64,000 nucleotides of DNA from Pseudomonadota bacterium. Lineage in GTDB: Bacteria; Pseudomonadota; Alphaproteobacteria; Acetobacterales; Acetobacteraceae. Below the pieces are notes generated by a model. The model saw only the letters and a list, made by a program, of their open reading frames with translations, was not told the origin of the DNA and did not search any database. The translations under genes were made by a program, and so were the position numbers. The stretch spans positions 50,344 to 114,343 of the forward strand of contig JABBOH010000011.1 in assembly GCA_019351895.1 (NCBI GenBank), read 5' to 3'. Within the stretch, counting starts at the first letter, position 1. Every line of letters begins with the position of its first letter. This document shows, one piece after another, positions 13,217 to 19,431 of the stretch.

Positions 13217-13966
13217 CTAACTGTTCTTGGACAGGAACAAGCCACGGCTGCGCTGCAGGTGGACGCGCATGGCCTCCACCGCACCCGCCTCGTCATGGGC
13301 GATGATCGCGTCCAGGATCATCCGGTGCTCCTCGAGCGTCAGGTGCTCATGGCCCTTCCAGAGCAGGAGGCTCGCATGGAACATGCTCAGCCAATGCAGC
13401 ATCGCGCGGCTCACCGCCTCCAGCACCGCATTGCGGGTGATCGCCGCGATCGCGGTGTGGAACGCCATATCGGCCGCCACGAACCCGCCGGAGTCGCGCT
13501 TGAGGAAGGAGGCCTGCCGCGCCAGCGCCGCCTCCAGCCGCTCGATATCGGCGGGCTCCGCCAGCCGCGCCGCATCGCGCACGATGCCGATCTCGAAGAA
13601 GCTGCGCGCATCCTGCAGCTGGCCCAGCGATTGCGGCTGCGTCGCCAGGATGTGCCGCGCCGTGTGCTCGATCTGCCCAATCACGTCCGCGACTGTCGGC
13701 TGCGACACGCGCGCCCGCTCGCCATGCGTGATGACGATGAGGCCGAGCTTCTCCAACCGCTGCATCGCCTCGCGGATGGCGGGCCTGCCGACGCCGTAGG
13801 CCGCCATCAGCTCCCGCTCGGACGGGATCTGCGTGTTCGGAGGATAGCCGCCGGTTTCAATCTCCTTCAGCAGGCGGTCGAAGACCTCGTCCGAAAGCTT
13901 GCGCCGGCTGATCTTGCGGACGGCGATCGGCGGGCGGCGGCGATCGGGCCCCGGCGTGGGCATCAC
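13217..13966 (-). CDS. FadR/GntR family transcriptional regulator (FCD domain)
   Basis: LSDEVFDRLLKEIETGGYPPNTQIPSERELMAAYGVGRPAIREAMQRLEKLGLI plus an FCD-like C-terminus. Confidence 0.9.
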   Translation of the reverse strand: MMPTPGPDRRRPPIAVRKISRRKLSDEVFDRLLKEIETGGYPPNTQIPSERELMAAYGVGRPAIREAMQRLEKLGLIVITHGERARVSQPTVADVIGQIEHTARHILATQPQSLGQLQDARSFFEIGIVRDAARLAEPADIERLEAALARQASFLKRDSGGFVAADMAFHTAIAAITRNAVLEAVSRAMLHWLSMFHASLLLWKGHEHLTLEEHRMILDAIIAHDEAGAVEAMRVHLQRSRGLFLSKNS

Positions 13967-15006
13967 GGCACCGGGGCGGCCGGCACGACCGCGCCGCCGC
14001 GCTCCGCCGAGGCATAGGCCGCCATGACAAGCCCGTAGGTGCGCAGGTTGTCGACGCCCGATGTTTCAGGGTCGGTGCCGTTCATCCAGGCGCTGATCCA
14101 GTGGCGCTGGAGGTTGAGCACGCTCTCCTGCACCACGTGCCACGGCTTCTCGGTCCAGCCGGGCGTCACCGGCTCCGCGTCCCGCTCCTCCACGGCGCCG
14201 TTCGAGGTGACGCGCAGGCGATAACCTTCCAGCAACTCGATGGTGCCGGCACTGCCCTCGATGCGCAGGATCGTCTGCGGAAACAGCTCCGGCAGGCGCC
14301 GGCTGGAATAGCTGCAATCGACGATGCTGACGCCGCCGCCCGCGTGGCGGATGAGGGTTGTCGCCACATCCTCCCCGGCGATCTCGGGATTGACCTGCTG
14401 CGTCAGGCAATAGAGCGTCTGCGCCTCGCCCATGATCGCGCGGCAGACGTCGAGGATGTGGATGCCGAGGTCGATCAGGATGAAGCGCTTCTCGGTCGCG
14501 AGATAGGGCTGGCCGGAATAGACGTCGTAGCCGCTGCGGAAGGAAAGCTGCGCGAAATGCGGGGTTCCGATGCGGCCCTCGGCGACCGCCTTGCGGACCG
14601 CGAGAATGGGGCTTTGGAAGCGGAAGTTCTCATGCACCATCAGCCTGACATTCGCCGCCCGGCAGGACTCGACGATGGCGGCGCAATCCTCCCAGCTTGG
14701 GGCCAGAGGCTTCTGCACGATGACATGAACGCCGTGCGCTGCCGCAAGTCCCACCAGCGCCCTGTGCGTCTCCATCGTCGTGGCGATATCGACGAAATCC
14801 AGCCGCTCCGCGCGCAGCATGGCCTCGACATCCGTATAGGCGGCGGGCGCGCCGAAACGCTGCCGAGCCGCCTCCGCCCGCGCCGGATCGCGGTCGCAGA
14901 CGGCGATAAGCTCGACCTCGGGGATCTCACTCCAGGCGTGCAGATGGTTCTGGGCGAAGAAGCCGCAGCCGATAACGGCCAAGCGCAGCTTTTGTTGTGT
15001 GCTCAT
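13963..15006 (-). CDS. Gfo/Idh/MocA family oxidoreductase (candidate apiose-dehydrogenase-like)
   Basis: LAVIGCGFFAQNHLHAW, VIVQKPLAPSWEDC (EKP-like motif), FILIDLGIHILDVCRAIMG. Confidence 0.85.
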   Translation of the reverse strand: MSTQQKLRLAVIGCGFFAQNHLHAWSEIPEVELIAVCDRDPARAEAARQRFGAPAAYTDVEAMLRAERLDFVDIATTMETHRALVGLAAAHGVHVIVQKPLAPSWEDCAAIVESCRAANVRLMVHENFRFQSPILAVRKAVAEGRIGTPHFAQLSFRSGYDVYSGQPYLATEKRFILIDLGIHILDVCRAIMGEAQTLYCLTQQVNPEIAGEDVATTLIRHAGGGVSIVDCSYSSRRLPELFPQTILRIEGSAGTIELLEGYRLRVTSNGAVEERDAEPVTPGWTEKPWHVVQESVLNLQRHWISAWMNGTDPETSGVDNLRTYGLVMAAYASAERGGAVVPAAPVP

Positions 15007-15015
15007 TATCCCGCC

Positions 15016-15855
15016 TCAGGCGTTGCAGATTTCCTTGACGGACTTCAGGACCGCCTCCTTGTTGAACACGCGCTCCAGCCAGCCGTCACGGAAGATCTCG
15101 GGCTTGGCTTTCTCGATGGCGTAGAGCGCGCCGTCCGAGAACTTGCCTTCCGGAAAAGCCTCGAACGCGATGGAGAGGCCGATGTTGATATGACCCAGCA
15201 TGAAATCCATCGCCGCCTGCCGGGGCACGCCACGCCGCACCACATCGTCGACCGCCTCCCGCATGGCGAGGCAGAGAGTGATGCCGACCGTCTCGGACAG
15301 CGCGGGCTCCAGCGTCGCGATGTTTTCCACCGTGCAGCGATGCGCGCGCATCACCGGCTTGTAGATCGTGCGCGCGATCTCCTCGCAGAGCGCGTAATGC
15401 TCCTCGGGTCCCTGCATGAGCGCGCAGACGATGTGCTGCTTGGCGTGGATGCCGCCGAAGAAATCAGCCTTCGCCACGGGGTCCGTCTCGTCGTTGAAGA
15501 TGGGCGGGTGGCATGGATGGGTCACGAAGTAGGTCACATCCGCCCGCTCCGGCATCTCGCCCGCATAGGGGGCGGCGGCGTCGAGCACGATGAGCGCCGC
15601 GTTCGGCCGCACCTTGCCGATGATCTCGTGGGCGATCTTGCCGATCAGCCGGTCCGGCACCGCCATCAGCACGACATCGGCTTCGGCAAGCGCGCGGTCC
15701 ATCTCGACGCAATCCGCGCCGATCGCGGCCTTCAGGCGCTCGCGTCCGGCGCCCGAAACTTCGACGTGATCCACGTCGAAGCGCGAGCCCTGAAGATTGG
15801 TCGAAAGACGCACGCCCATCTTGCCGCCGGCACCGAGGAGAGCGATCTTCGTCAT
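15016..15855 (-). CDS. NAD(P)-binding phosphogluconate-dehydrogenase C-terminal-domain protein; ApnO-like (D-apionate oxidoisomerase) candidate
   Basis: MTKIALLGAGGKMGVRLSTNL Rossmann start; HPCHPPIFNDE; HRCTVENIATLEPALSETVG. Sits beside a DUF1537 kinase and an RLP. Specific function is inferred from context. Confidence 0.7.
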   Translation of the reverse strand: MTKIALLGAGGKMGVRLSTNLQGSRFDVDHVEVSGAGRERLKAAIGADCVEMDRALAEADVVLMAVPDRLIGKIAHEIIGKVRPNAALIVLDAAAPYAGEMPERADVTYFVTHPCHPPIFNDETDPVAKADFFGGIHAKQHIVCALMQGPEEHYALCEEIARTIYKPVMRAHRCTVENIATLEPALSETVGITLCLAMREAVDDVVRRGVPRQAAMDFMLGHINIGLSIAFEAFPEGKFSDGALYAIEKAKPEIFRDGWLERVFNKEAVLKSVKEICNA

Positions 15856-15871
15856 TGGATGATCCTTCAAA

Positions 15872-17251
15872 TCAAGCTGTTGCGGAAATCGCGCGGCCAC
15901 CGGCCTTGATCCCCCCGAAATAGTCGGCCCTACCCATCTGGCCGCCCTTCAGGGCGAGTTCCAGGCGGCGATGGGCGGGATCGTCGGAATGCGCGCGGCA
16001 GAGCGCCGCACCCGGCACCGTCGCGGCGAGCGCCGTCAGCGCATAGACGCCGAGCGCCAAGGCCGCGTGGCTTGACGTGTCACCGCCCGCGATGATGCCG
16101 CGGTCGATGCCGGCGGTCCGCATCACGCGGTCGAGGATGCGGCCGAGGCCGTCGCCGATGCGCTCGTTCACCGCATCGGCGGAAACGCCCGCCGCCTGCA
16201 CGGCCGTGCGCAGCGCAGGCACGGAGGCATCGTCCGGGCCGCGCGCCGTGAAGACGACGGGGTCGTGACCCTCCGACAAAACCCGCAGCGCCCGCGTGAC
16301 GCCCCGCTCCATCTCATCCTGCCAGCGCCGCTCATCGACCGCGGCCGTGGGGTCCAGCCGGATGCCGCCAAAGCCATGCGCCTCGGCCCAGGCGATCTGC
16401 TCGTCCGTCACCGGCGAGCACGAGCCCGAGACCGCCACCACATGCGCCGCGCGCGGCGCCACGGGCGGGGTCTCCACGACGGGGATCAGCCCCCGCGCCT
16501 GCCAATGGGCGATCAGCGCGTAGTCGATGCCCTGCGAACCGACCACGAACTGGCGCGGCTCGCGATGCTCCCAGACCAGCCGGCCGGCTTCGGCCAGCGT
16601 CTCCTGATCGACGATGTCGAGCGACACGATACGCGCGCCCTCGCCGCGACGCCGGGCCAGCGCCGCGTCCCCCTCGCCGCGCTTCATCGCGACGAAATCG
16701 ACGACGCCGCTCGGCACATCGGTCTGCGGGGCGAGATGGCGGCCGAGATCGGCCTCATGCATCGGCGTCACCGGATGGCGGCTCATCGTCGGGTGGCGGT
16801 CCAGCCGGTAGCCGGTGCCACCCACGGTCGCGAAGAGGTTGCCGAAGGCCTGATAGCGGTGGATCGCCGGCGCCGCCGTGATCAGCGGCACCCAGCCATT
16901 GCCGAAGGCCGCAAGGCCGACCTCGATCGCCGTGCCGATCGAGCCGGTGGACGGCGAGGAATCGAAGGTCGAGCAGATCTTGTAGTGGATCAGCGGCGCG
17001 CCCGTCGCCCCAAGCGCCGCGAAGATGGGCGGCAGGTGGTCGCGCATCCATCCGGGCGGCTTCGAGCGGGCGATGCCGGCGATGCCGATGCCACGCAGAC
17101 CCGGAAACCGCGCCAGCTGCTCGGGCTTCGGCACGTCGAAGAACAGAGCCGCCGGCAGTCCTGCGAAGCTCAGCGCCTCCATGGTCGCCGCCGACCCCGT
17201 GAAGTCGTCGCCATACCAGGCGATGAGCGGCCCCTGGGGTAGCGCGTTCAT
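15872..17251 (-). CDS. Four-carbon acid sugar kinase family protein (DUF1537), OiaK-like candidate
   Basis: IAWYGDDFTGSAATMEALSFAGL (DUF1537 start); GSCSPVTDEQIAWA; GGDTSSHAALALGV. ATG at 17251 overlaps the RLP stop by 4 nt. Confidence 0.88.
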   Translation of the reverse strand: MNALPQGPLIAWYGDDFTGSAATMEALSFAGLPAALFFDVPKPEQLARFPGLRGIGIAGIARSKPPGWMRDHLPPIFAALGATGAPLIHYKICSTFDSSPSTGSIGTAIEVGLAAFGNGWVPLITAAPAIHRYQAFGNLFATVGGTGYRLDRHPTMSRHPVTPMHEADLGRHLAPQTDVPSGVVDFVAMKRGEGDAALARRRGEGARIVSLDIVDQETLAEAGRLVWEHREPRQFVVGSQGIDYALIAHWQARGLIPVVETPPVAPRAAHVVAVSGSCSPVTDEQIAWAEAHGFGGIRLDPTAAVDERRWQDEMERGVTRALRVLSEGHDPVVFTARGPDDASVPALRTAVQAAGVSADAVNERIGDGLGRILDRVMRTAGIDRGIIAGGDTSSHAALALGVYALTALAATVPGAALCRAHSDDPAHRRLELALKGGQMGRADYFGGIKAGGRAISATA

Positions 17252-18510
17252 GACACGCCTGTCTTGCCGAAGGCTGCGATAGACTGCGCCAGTTCGGGGT
17301 GCTCCCGCGCATAGGTCTCCAGCGGAACGCCGGAGACCGCCGCTTCCCAGGACTGGCGGATGGCGCGCACGCCGGCCCCGGGGCCTCCGGGATGGCCCAT
17401 GATCCCGCCGCCGCCGAGATAGAGCAGGTCGATCGAGCCGCCGTTGCGCGCGTAGGTCTCGGGCGCCTGACCGCCCCACTGCCCGGAGCCCACCACGGGC
17501 AGCGCGCGGTCGGCCTCGTCCAGCATCGGCGTCATGCAGGCGTGGAAGGAGGCCAGGAAGGACTGGTCCGGCTCCCAGTATTTCGCGCCGATGCCGTTCA
17601 CCTGGAACTGGTCGACGCCGAGCAGGCGCCAGATCTGCTGGTAGACGCTGAAGTCGAAACCCAGATCGGGATGGCGCGTCAGCACGTCCCAGCCGCTGCG
17701 ATGCGCGTGCAGAACGAGGCGGGATCGTTTCCGCAGAAACGCCATCCCGCCATGACCCACGGCGTTGATCGGGATGACCGCCGCATTGCCGCCAGCCTCG
17801 GCGACGATGTCGTGGTGGCGCATCATCGTGTCGGGATCGGCGCTCGCGATGCCGAAGGCGTACATGACCTTCCGGCCGGTCTTCTGCTCGTGGTCCAGGA
17901 TGACCGGCATCACCGCCCGCACACGGTCCGCGAGCGGCGCGTAGCCGGGGTTCATCATCTTCTCGTCGTCCTTGATGAAGTCGACGCCAGCCTCCACGAG
18001 TTCGCGGGTGACGGCGCCGACATCCTGGGCACTCAGGCCGAGGTTGGGCTTGATGATGCTGCCGATCAGCGGCCGACCATAGACGCCTGTCAGCCGCCGG
18101 CTGCCGGCGATGCCGAAGGCTGGACCGGGATGAGCGCGGATGAATTCCGGCGGCAGGGCGAGGCCGACGATCCGCACGCCCGAGAGCCCACGCACCGAGA
18201 AGACCCCGCCGAAGGCGATGGTCATCAGCGCCGCGATGTCGGTGCCGATGACCTCCAGCGGGAAGTCGATATCGACATCGGCGCGGCTGTAGGTGCCGCC
18301 CGGCACCGCATCCTGTGGGAAGGCCGGCCGCTCGTGCGGGTCCAGCATGCGGATGCCGGAGACTCGGGCGGCGCAGCGCGCCTTGAGATCGGGCGTCTCG
18401 CCCGGCACAGGCACGAAGGTCCCGGTCGACTGGTCGCTCGCGATCTTCTCCGCCATGCGGCCGATGTCGCCCGCGGTCTCGATGCGATAGGTGACGCGGG
18501 CAACCGCCAT
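17248..18510 (-). CDS. RuBisCO large chain-like protein (RLP)
   Basis: GSIIKPNLGLS, GVDFIKDDE, LHAHRSGWDVLTR, GSGQWGGQAP, YLGGGGIMGHPGGPGAG: RuBisCO large-subunit fold motifs with several catalytic substitutions. Confidence 0.92.
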   Translation of the reverse strand: MAVARVTYRIETAGDIGRMAEKIASDQSTGTFVPVPGETPDLKARCAARVSGIRMLDPHERPAFPQDAVPGGTYSRADVDIDFPLEVIGTDIAALMTIAFGGVFSVRGLSGVRIVGLALPPEFIRAHPGPAFGIAGSRRLTGVYGRPLIGSIIKPNLGLSAQDVGAVTRELVEAGVDFIKDDEKMMNPGYAPLADRVRAVMPVILDHEQKTGRKVMYAFGIASADPDTMMRHHDIVAEAGGNAAVIPINAVGHGGMAFLRKRSRLVLHAHRSGWDVLTRHPDLGFDFSVYQQIWRLLGVDQFQVNGIGAKYWEPDQSFLASFHACMTPMLDEADRALPVVGSGQWGGQAPETYARNGGSIDLLYLGGGGIMGHPGGPGAGVRAIRQSWEAAVSGVPLETYAREHPELAQSIAAFGKTGVS

Positions 18511-18621: not shown

Positions 18622-19431
18622 CTACATCGGCGCGGCCGGCGCGGGCCCCGCATCGTAGCCGCCCCAGACCGACTGGTCGTATTCGATGACCGATCCCGTC
18701 ATGAGCCCGGACTCCCCGGTCGCCAGAAACGCGACGGCGCGCGCGACCTCGGCCGGGTCGATGAGCCGCCCGTTCGGCTGCCCGAGCGCCGCCTTCTCCA
18801 GCCAGTCCGCATCGGCACCGTGAAACTCGCGCTGTATGCGGTCCTCGCCGTCCGACGCCATCCAGCCGATGTGTAGAGCGTTGACCCGGATGCGGTTGCG
18901 CAGCAGGGCATAGGCGGTGTTGCGGGTGAGGGTCGCGAGCGCCCCCTTGGACGCGCAATAGGCGGCGATGAACGGCTGACCCGCCAGGGCCGACATCGAG
19001 CCGATATTGACGATTGTGCCTTCCACGCCCTCCCGCTTCATCAGGGCGATGGTCTCCTGCATCAGGAAGAACGGCGCGCGGACGTTGATCGCGAAGATCT
19101 GGTCGAACAACTCGGGCGTGGTGTCGAGGATGGTGCCTCGATCCGTGCTGCCGGCCGAGTTCACCAGCGTGTCGACGCGGCCGAACGCCCGGTCCGCCGC
19201 CGCCACGATGGACCGGCAGCTCTCGACATCCTGCAGGTCCGCCCGGGCGAAAACCGTGCGCGTGCCGGTCTCCGCCTCGATCCTGGAGGCGACGGCCGCG
19301 CCTCGCGCTTCGTGACGACCGCTGATGACGAGGCCAGCGGCTTTGCGGGCCGCGAGTTCACGCGCGATTGCGGCGCCAAGTCCCTGGGTCGCCCCGGTGA
19401 CGATGGCGACCTTTCCAGACATGTCGAACAT
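18622..19431 (-). CDS. SDR family oxidoreductase
   Basis: VAIVTGATQGLGAAIAREL, NIGSMSALAGQPFIAAYCASKGAL (YxxxK). Confidence 0.92.
   Translation of the reverse strand: MFDMSGKVAIVTGATQGLGAAIARELAARKAAGLVISGRHEARGAAVASRIEAETGTRTVFARADLQDVESCRSIVAAADRAFGRVDTLVNSAGSTDRGTILDTTPELFDQIFAINVRAPFFLMQETIALMKREGVEGTIVNIGSMSALAGQPFIAAYCASKGALATLTRNTAYALLRNRIRVNALHIGWMASDGEDRIQREFHGADADWLEKAALGQPNGRLIDPAEVARAVAFLATGESGLMTGSVIEYDQSVWGGYDAGPAPAAPM

Follow-up and report, generated by a model that had tools for sequence, protein, structure and literature searches.

A RuBisCO-like protein of an acetobacterial operon assigned to the OiaX family of predicted 3-oxo-isoapionate-4-phosphate decarboxylases

Enediolate formation is common to RuBisCO-like proteins (RLPs), whereas the steps that follow it differ (PMC10176493). 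For 3-oxo-isoapionate-4-phosphate two outcomes have been described, namely decarboxylation by the RLP of A. radiobacter K84 and transcarboxylation/hydrolysis by the RLP of X. autotrophicus (PMC6302742), and we here refer to the two types as OiaX and OiaT, respectively. A further relative, RHE_RS26630 of R. etli CFN42 (locus L094, 9950-11245), has been treated as a biotin-independent CO2-fixing carboxylase (PMC8914248).

Based on sequence models, phylogeny, active-site alignment and gene neighbourhoods, we propose that the RLP encoded in the window (the whole stretch of 64,000 nucleotides analysed here) is very probably OiaX, a form IV RuBisCO-like protein that would decarboxylate 3-oxo-isoapionate-4-phosphate in D-apiose/D-apionate catabolism, apiose being a sugar of plant walls. 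With OiaX proteins (NF042437; Rhizobium, Shinella, Acidisoma and others) it shares a model score over the cut-off, the clade, the active-site residues and the neighbours (kinase, ApnO, Gfo/Idh and NanR), but it has N rather than the A or S of most OiaX at position 177, and its operon lacks ApnL and isomerases and has an SDR gene upstream. The sister RLPs that we call OiaT-type (including the Burkholderia fungorum RLP of crystal structure 3nwr), a provisional name taken from context and literature for a clade that may hold other activities, have in common with it the fold, K175, K201/D203/E204, H294/R295, K334, the partner kinase and the loss of K177 and H298; they differ in keeping E60, N123, H325, H327 and S379, in being only 42-47% identical and in having no adjoining TIM or RpiB. 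Form I/III RuBisCO, at about 27-32% identity, shares the fold, the Mg/carbamate ligands, K175, H294, R295, K334 and the phosphate-binding glycines, but K177, N123, H298, H327, E60 and S379 are replaced in the window RLP.

Family membership and gene neighbourhood

The RLP frame reads from 18510 to 17248, and the plus strand there holds an antisense frame only; the open frame, previously reported with no strand, is real and lies on the minus strand. The RLP stop codon (17248-17250) and the kinase start codon share bases in an ATGA at 17248-17251. The protein scores 751.9 bits with the NCBIfam OiaX equivalog NF042437 (cut-off 700), covering profile positions 2-412 of 412, and the next best model reaches 204 bits, far under its own cut-off. 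In one scan of the genome collection, 36 usable loci encoded orthologues sharing 63-83% identity, from Acidisoma, Shinella, Rhizobium, Labrys, Lichenibacterium, Paracoccus and Mameliella, among others; a further 231 plasmid records contain relatives at 60-80% identity, many of them annotated OiaX, and all five Acidisoma genomes examined carry the gene. In a maximum-likelihood tree, a single OiaX clade of 39 rows (support 100/100) stands apart from the OiaT-like RLPs, with the window RLP inside its Acidisoma group (100/98); long outgroup branches are unsurely placed in this tree, which does not affect the position of the window RLP in the OiaX clade. The AlphaFold model (pLDDT 85.5, pTM 0.85) finds its best structural match in the RLP crystal structure 3nwr (TM 0.89/0.93). 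The family model and the tree, in conjunction with the residue pattern, the operon and the isomerases beside orthologues, place the protein in the OiaX family. The gene itself is routine, a further OiaX in a known enzyme family that is already annotated on many rhizobial replicons.

Table 1 Genes of the operon in the window
Feature	Position	Strand	Size and matches
SDR oxidoreductase (PRK06198 family)	18622..19431	-	NF004847 428 bits; 4nim E 1.6e-117
RLP, OiaX (predicted 3-oxo-isoapionate-4-phosphate decarboxylase)	17248..18510	-	420 aa + stop, ATG start; NF042437, tree, model
Four-carbon acid sugar kinase (SBD_N/NBD_C), OiaK-like 3-oxo-isoapionate kinase	15872..17251	-	459 aa; NF042436
PGDH_C-domain protein, ApnO-like D-apionate oxidoisomerase candidate	15016..15855	-	PF16896 211.6 bits
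Gfo/Idh/MocA oxidoreductase, candidate D-apiose dehydrogenase (ApsD)	13963..15006	-	PF01408
GntR/FCD regulator, NanR-like, candidate operon regulator	13217..13966	-	NF003011 269 bits, cut-off 260

The table follows minus-strand order (SDR, RLP, kinase, PGDH_C protein, Gfo/Idh, NanR-like), in which genes after the RLP overlap or are separated by at most about 10 bases; a promoter and terminator scan gave nothing above chance. The SDR gene immediately precedes that of the RLP and is read in the same direction; no counterpart was found at any other OiaX locus compared, and its product could be an additional enzyme for entry into the pathway. The best NCBIfam match of the kinase is OiaK, with 546 bits under a cut-off of 700, a higher score than the 473 bits of the kinase beside R. 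etli OiaX. The ApnO-like protein probably starts at 15855, which gives it the 279 aa of its orthologues, within an open frame extending to 15900, and is 81-89% identical to the same-operon gene in four congeners; it matched no curated ApnO model, and the assignment draws on the domain, synteny and similarity to the solved relative 5t57 (E 2.4e-96). The Gfo/Idh gene is 74-75% identical to the operon gene of three congeners, and its best solved relatives are 5uhw, 5uhz, 5ui9, 5uia and 5uib (E 3.5e-109), structures which we take to be from work on apiose.

Comparable settings recur among the 39 OiaX loci, where kinase, ApnO and NanR genes are each present in 38, Gfo/Idh in 36 and ApnL in 31; in genome G086 no kinase gene was seen beside OiaX in the stretch examined. 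A congener (G121) has the same order as the window, RLP-kinase-ApnO-Gfo/Idh-NanR, and upstream of its operon lie four open frames sized like the ribose-type ABC transporter genes of R. etli. R. etli CFN42 combines OiaX, kinase, TIM, RpiB, ApnO, the ribose-type ABC transporter, Gfo/Idh and a 44% ApnL match in a single run. Within the stretch examined at the 39 loci, TIM occurs in five and RpiB in six: the RLP gene is followed by TIM and then RpiB in Acidisoma sp. L85, and by RpiB in two other Acidisoma. With the D-erythrulose-4-phosphate isomerase model DerI (cut-off 240), the RpiB proteins of L85 and R. etli score 246 and 258 bits, respectively, and so pass it. TIM or RpiB was found at none of 11 sister-clade loci; two of these have a pyruvate kinase gene, in one case together with an enolase gene, as would befit a 3-phosphoglycerate product. 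As TIM and DerI would be needed after decarboxylation and not after formation of 3-phosphoglycerate and glycolate, their location beside OiaX orthologues favours the decarboxylase OiaX.

Active-site residues compared with RuBisCO and the sister clade

The window RLP was aligned with form I RuBisCO (Afipia carboxidovorans cbbL), the form III enzyme 8dht, the RLP 3nwr, OiaX orthologues and the sister RLPs; residues are given in spinach RuBisCO numbering, followed by that of the window RLP. The metal and carbamate ligands are kept (K201=K180, D203=D182, E204=E183), as are K175=K154, H294=H270, R295=R271, K334=K310 and G403/G404=G367/G368, consistent with the motifs GSIIKPN, KDDE, HAHRS, DQFQVNGIGAKYWEPD and GGGGIMGHPGG found in the protein. 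The retained K175 region, carbamylation motif, H294/R295 pair and phosphate-binding motif listed in the preliminary description are hence borne out by alignment, and so are its two replacements, K177 to N156 and H327 to Q303. It had, in addition, described the lysine context of loop 6 as remodelled, which holds for H327 and for the neighbours of K334 but not for K334 itself: the loop-6 register is exact (DHIHAGTVVGK in form I, DQFQVNGIGAK in the window RLP, 11 residues each), and since the distance from the Asp before H325 to K334 equals that in form I, the lysine is kept in register. The possibility that the substitutions reflect an offset is answered by the same alignment, which shows them to be true and the canonical set to be even less complete than first counted, with E60 to D26, W66 to F32, N123 to G102, H298 to W274, H325 to Q301 and S379 to G341 overlooked; of these, the S379 assignment is less certain, as it hinges on alignment of the SGQWGG/SGGIH segment. 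The full residue set for RuBP carboxylation, by which forms I-III are recognised, is absent. The earlier view of an intact Mg/carbamate site incapable of RuBP carboxylation is therefore upheld, the changes at K177, N123, H298 and H327 being unfit for a normal RuBP carboxylase.

The description of the site as selectively altered is nonetheless misleading, as the pattern is shared by all 39 orthologues, and the sister RLPs compared likewise lack K177. D60, G123, W298, Q325 and Q327 occur in 39/39 OiaX sequences, position 379 is occupied by G in 21 and by C in 18, and position 177 by A in 28, S in 9 and N in 2, the last being the window RLP and that of genome G086. In the sister clade, all 23 distinct RLPs have E60, N123, H325, H327 and S379, and K177 and H298 are absent from every one. 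The altered active site is thus, on the sequences compared, the OiaX family's own pattern and not a variant peculiar to the window RLP.

Single positions are poor guides. The K177 change, initially offered as a functional clue, carries no weight, K177 being absent from every relative compared: A, S or N is present in all OiaX and sister RLPs, and G in one Streptomyces RLP. Being lost in both clades, K177 and H298 mark a protein only as not a RuBisCO. H325Q alone was rejected as a diagnostic, since Q is also found in the form III enzyme 8dht and, together with an intact H327, in a Streptomyces RLP, and neither N123G nor S379G alone is OiaX-specific, both being present in the RLP2 structure 2qyg. 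Jointly, five positions (60, 123, 325, 327 and 379) part the clades without exception in our sample (39 versus 23).

Other RLPs encountered in the survey have different residues and settings. On a Streptomyces plasmid, the gene of an RLP whose motif reads DQLH (L112, 3938-5203; Q325, H327 kept) adjoins genes for a four-carbon sugar kinase and for glycosidases of families GH28 and GH78, which suggests a pectin/rhamnogalacturonan setting. A set of deep MAG RLPs (L041 9956-11185, L042, L043, L044 9959-11155, L045, L047 and L050), from Pelolinea, Zipacnadia, Acidobacteriota, Pirellulales, Poribacteria and Isosphaeraceae, keeps K175, KDDE and H294, with R295 replaced by C/S, H327 by R/Q, K334 by Y/F/R/L and G404 by T/S, and matches none of the RLP types compared; at two of the loci the neighbours include sugar kinases, a DeoC-type aldolase, a ribulose-phosphate-3-epimerase-type gene and xylose-isomerase-like barrels.

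Proposed pathway and alternative readings

From family and context we infer the reaction, what it yields and how the individual residues contribute as follows, with intermediates under their apiose-pathway names. The ApsD-like Gfo/Idh protein would oxidise D-apiose to a lactone, which a lactonase would open; the ApnO-like protein would then make 3-oxo-isoapionate, and the OiaK-like kinase would phosphorylate it. In the RLP, Mg on carbamylated K180 together with D182 and E183 would hold the 3-oxo acid while CO2 departs, and the resulting enediolate would be stabilised and protonated, yielding L-erythrulose 1-phosphate for release. In a re-carboxylating enzyme, E60, N123, H325, H327 and S379 would help to bind CO2 and the remainder of the substrate and to orient them; as all five are changed here, the enediolate would be protonated and not re-carboxylated and cleaved. 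The predicted products of the window RLP are CO2 and L-erythrulose 1-phosphate, the latter of which TIM-type and RpiB-type isomerases would next convert to D-erythrose 4-phosphate.

The remaining steps were sought in the rest of the source genome (97.9% complete). No ApnL was found there by two homologues and the NCBIfam model; the same model matched in two congeners, ApnL being missing from two of four. Eight SMP-30-type lactonases are encoded, one of which may stand in for ApnL. Outside the window operon, contig C62 encodes a TIM that shares 62% identity with the one in the L85 operon, and the sole RpiB, on contig C33, scores 150.7 bits with DerI (cut-off 240); the steps downstream of decarboxylation are likely encoded in the source genome. 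On C33, this RpiB-type isomerase gene overlaps a dihydroxyacetone-kinase-type gene, and a second DhaL/DhaK-like pair lies further on (L076, 170-2466 and 9214-10877), likely a tetrulose or polyol catabolic island.

The substrate guessed in the preliminary description, 3-oxo-isoapionate-4-phosphate, is also the one predicted here, but its assay assumed release of 3-phosphoglycerate and glycolate, i.e. an OiaT-type transcarboxylase/hydrolase. Such an enzyme would use the same substrate with the same kind of kinase and ApnO partners, and the sister clade, at the identity given above, is common in the same family; we nevertheless consider it improbable for the window RLP, which has D, G, Q, Q and G at positions 60, 123, 325, 327 and 379 and so keeps none of the OiaT-type residues retained by the sisters. 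Sister RLPs score only 410-495 bits with the OiaX model, against 752, and their loci lack TIM/RpiB, two of them carrying pyruvate kinase or enolase genes instead. The family model, the phylogeny, the active-site residues and the gene neighbourhood all point to OiaX, and the products to seek in an assay are corrected to CO2 and L-erythrulose 1-phosphate. A role in another branched-sugar-acid route, e.g. of the D-hamamelose type, with the SDR at 18622 replacing the apiose enzymes, would fit the absence of ApnL and the restriction of the SDR to this locus among those compared, and an Ochrobactrum RLP of the hamamelose pathway has been described (Kim 2018, as cited in PMC8914248 and PMC10176493). 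It is very unlikely, as ApnO-, OiaK- and ApsD-like genes are all present, the sequence is a full-strength OiaX, and G121 is also without ApnL in an otherwise identical gene order.

Readings outside 3-oxo acid chemistry were rejected on model scores and residues. A true CO2-fixing carboxylase is hardly conceivable given the loss of K177, N123, H298 and H327 and carboxylase-model scores far below cut-off (204 of 497 and 195 of 438 bits). Such a function has been proposed for the R. etli/R. phaseoli orthologue, growth defects of rlp mutants (RHE_RS26630) being read there as CO2 fixation (PMC8914248); the 14C values given in that paper for CIAT652, 1047 in the mutant and 630 in the wild type, contradict the stated 'diminished' fixation. 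RHE_RS26630 is an OiaX orthologue within a full apiose gene set, and the OiaX assignment thus bears on this 2022 report, which treats it as a CO2-fixing enzyme. Equally remote is a methionine-salvage enolase (MtnW, 2,3-diketo-5-methylthiopentyl-1-phosphate enolase) or an RLP2/photosynthetic-type RLP. Both belong to the same superfamily and have K175 and KDDE in common with the window RLP, and MtnW shares the form IV class and chemistry via an enolate, but the MtnW models give 117 of 513.6 and 154 of 409 bits, far below cut-off, the operon is different with no salvage genes nearby, and the RLP2 structure 2qyg is without R295, K334 and G404, all kept here.

Implications of the residue split

With the window RLP assigned to OiaX, the clade residue split is the sole part that a specialist might pursue. 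Genome G086 carries both an OiaX-type and an OiaT-like RLP (loci L080 and L084), each beside an ApnO-type gene, and is a natural test bed for both routes. We tentatively raise the idea, which we would sooner doubt than accept, that E60, N123, H325, H327 and S379, all of which line the RuBisCO active site, jointly switch an RLP from one chemistry to the other on a shared substrate: E/N/H/H/S would permit enediolate carboxylation and cleavage to 3-phosphoglycerate and glycolate, and D/G/Q/Q/(G or C) would leave decarboxylation and protonation only. The split makes the residues for CO2 capture testable by swapping a few positions between two enzymes that share a substrate. If the idea is true, the OiaX/OiaT pair would represent a natural experiment on the residues that let the RuBisCO fold handle CO2.
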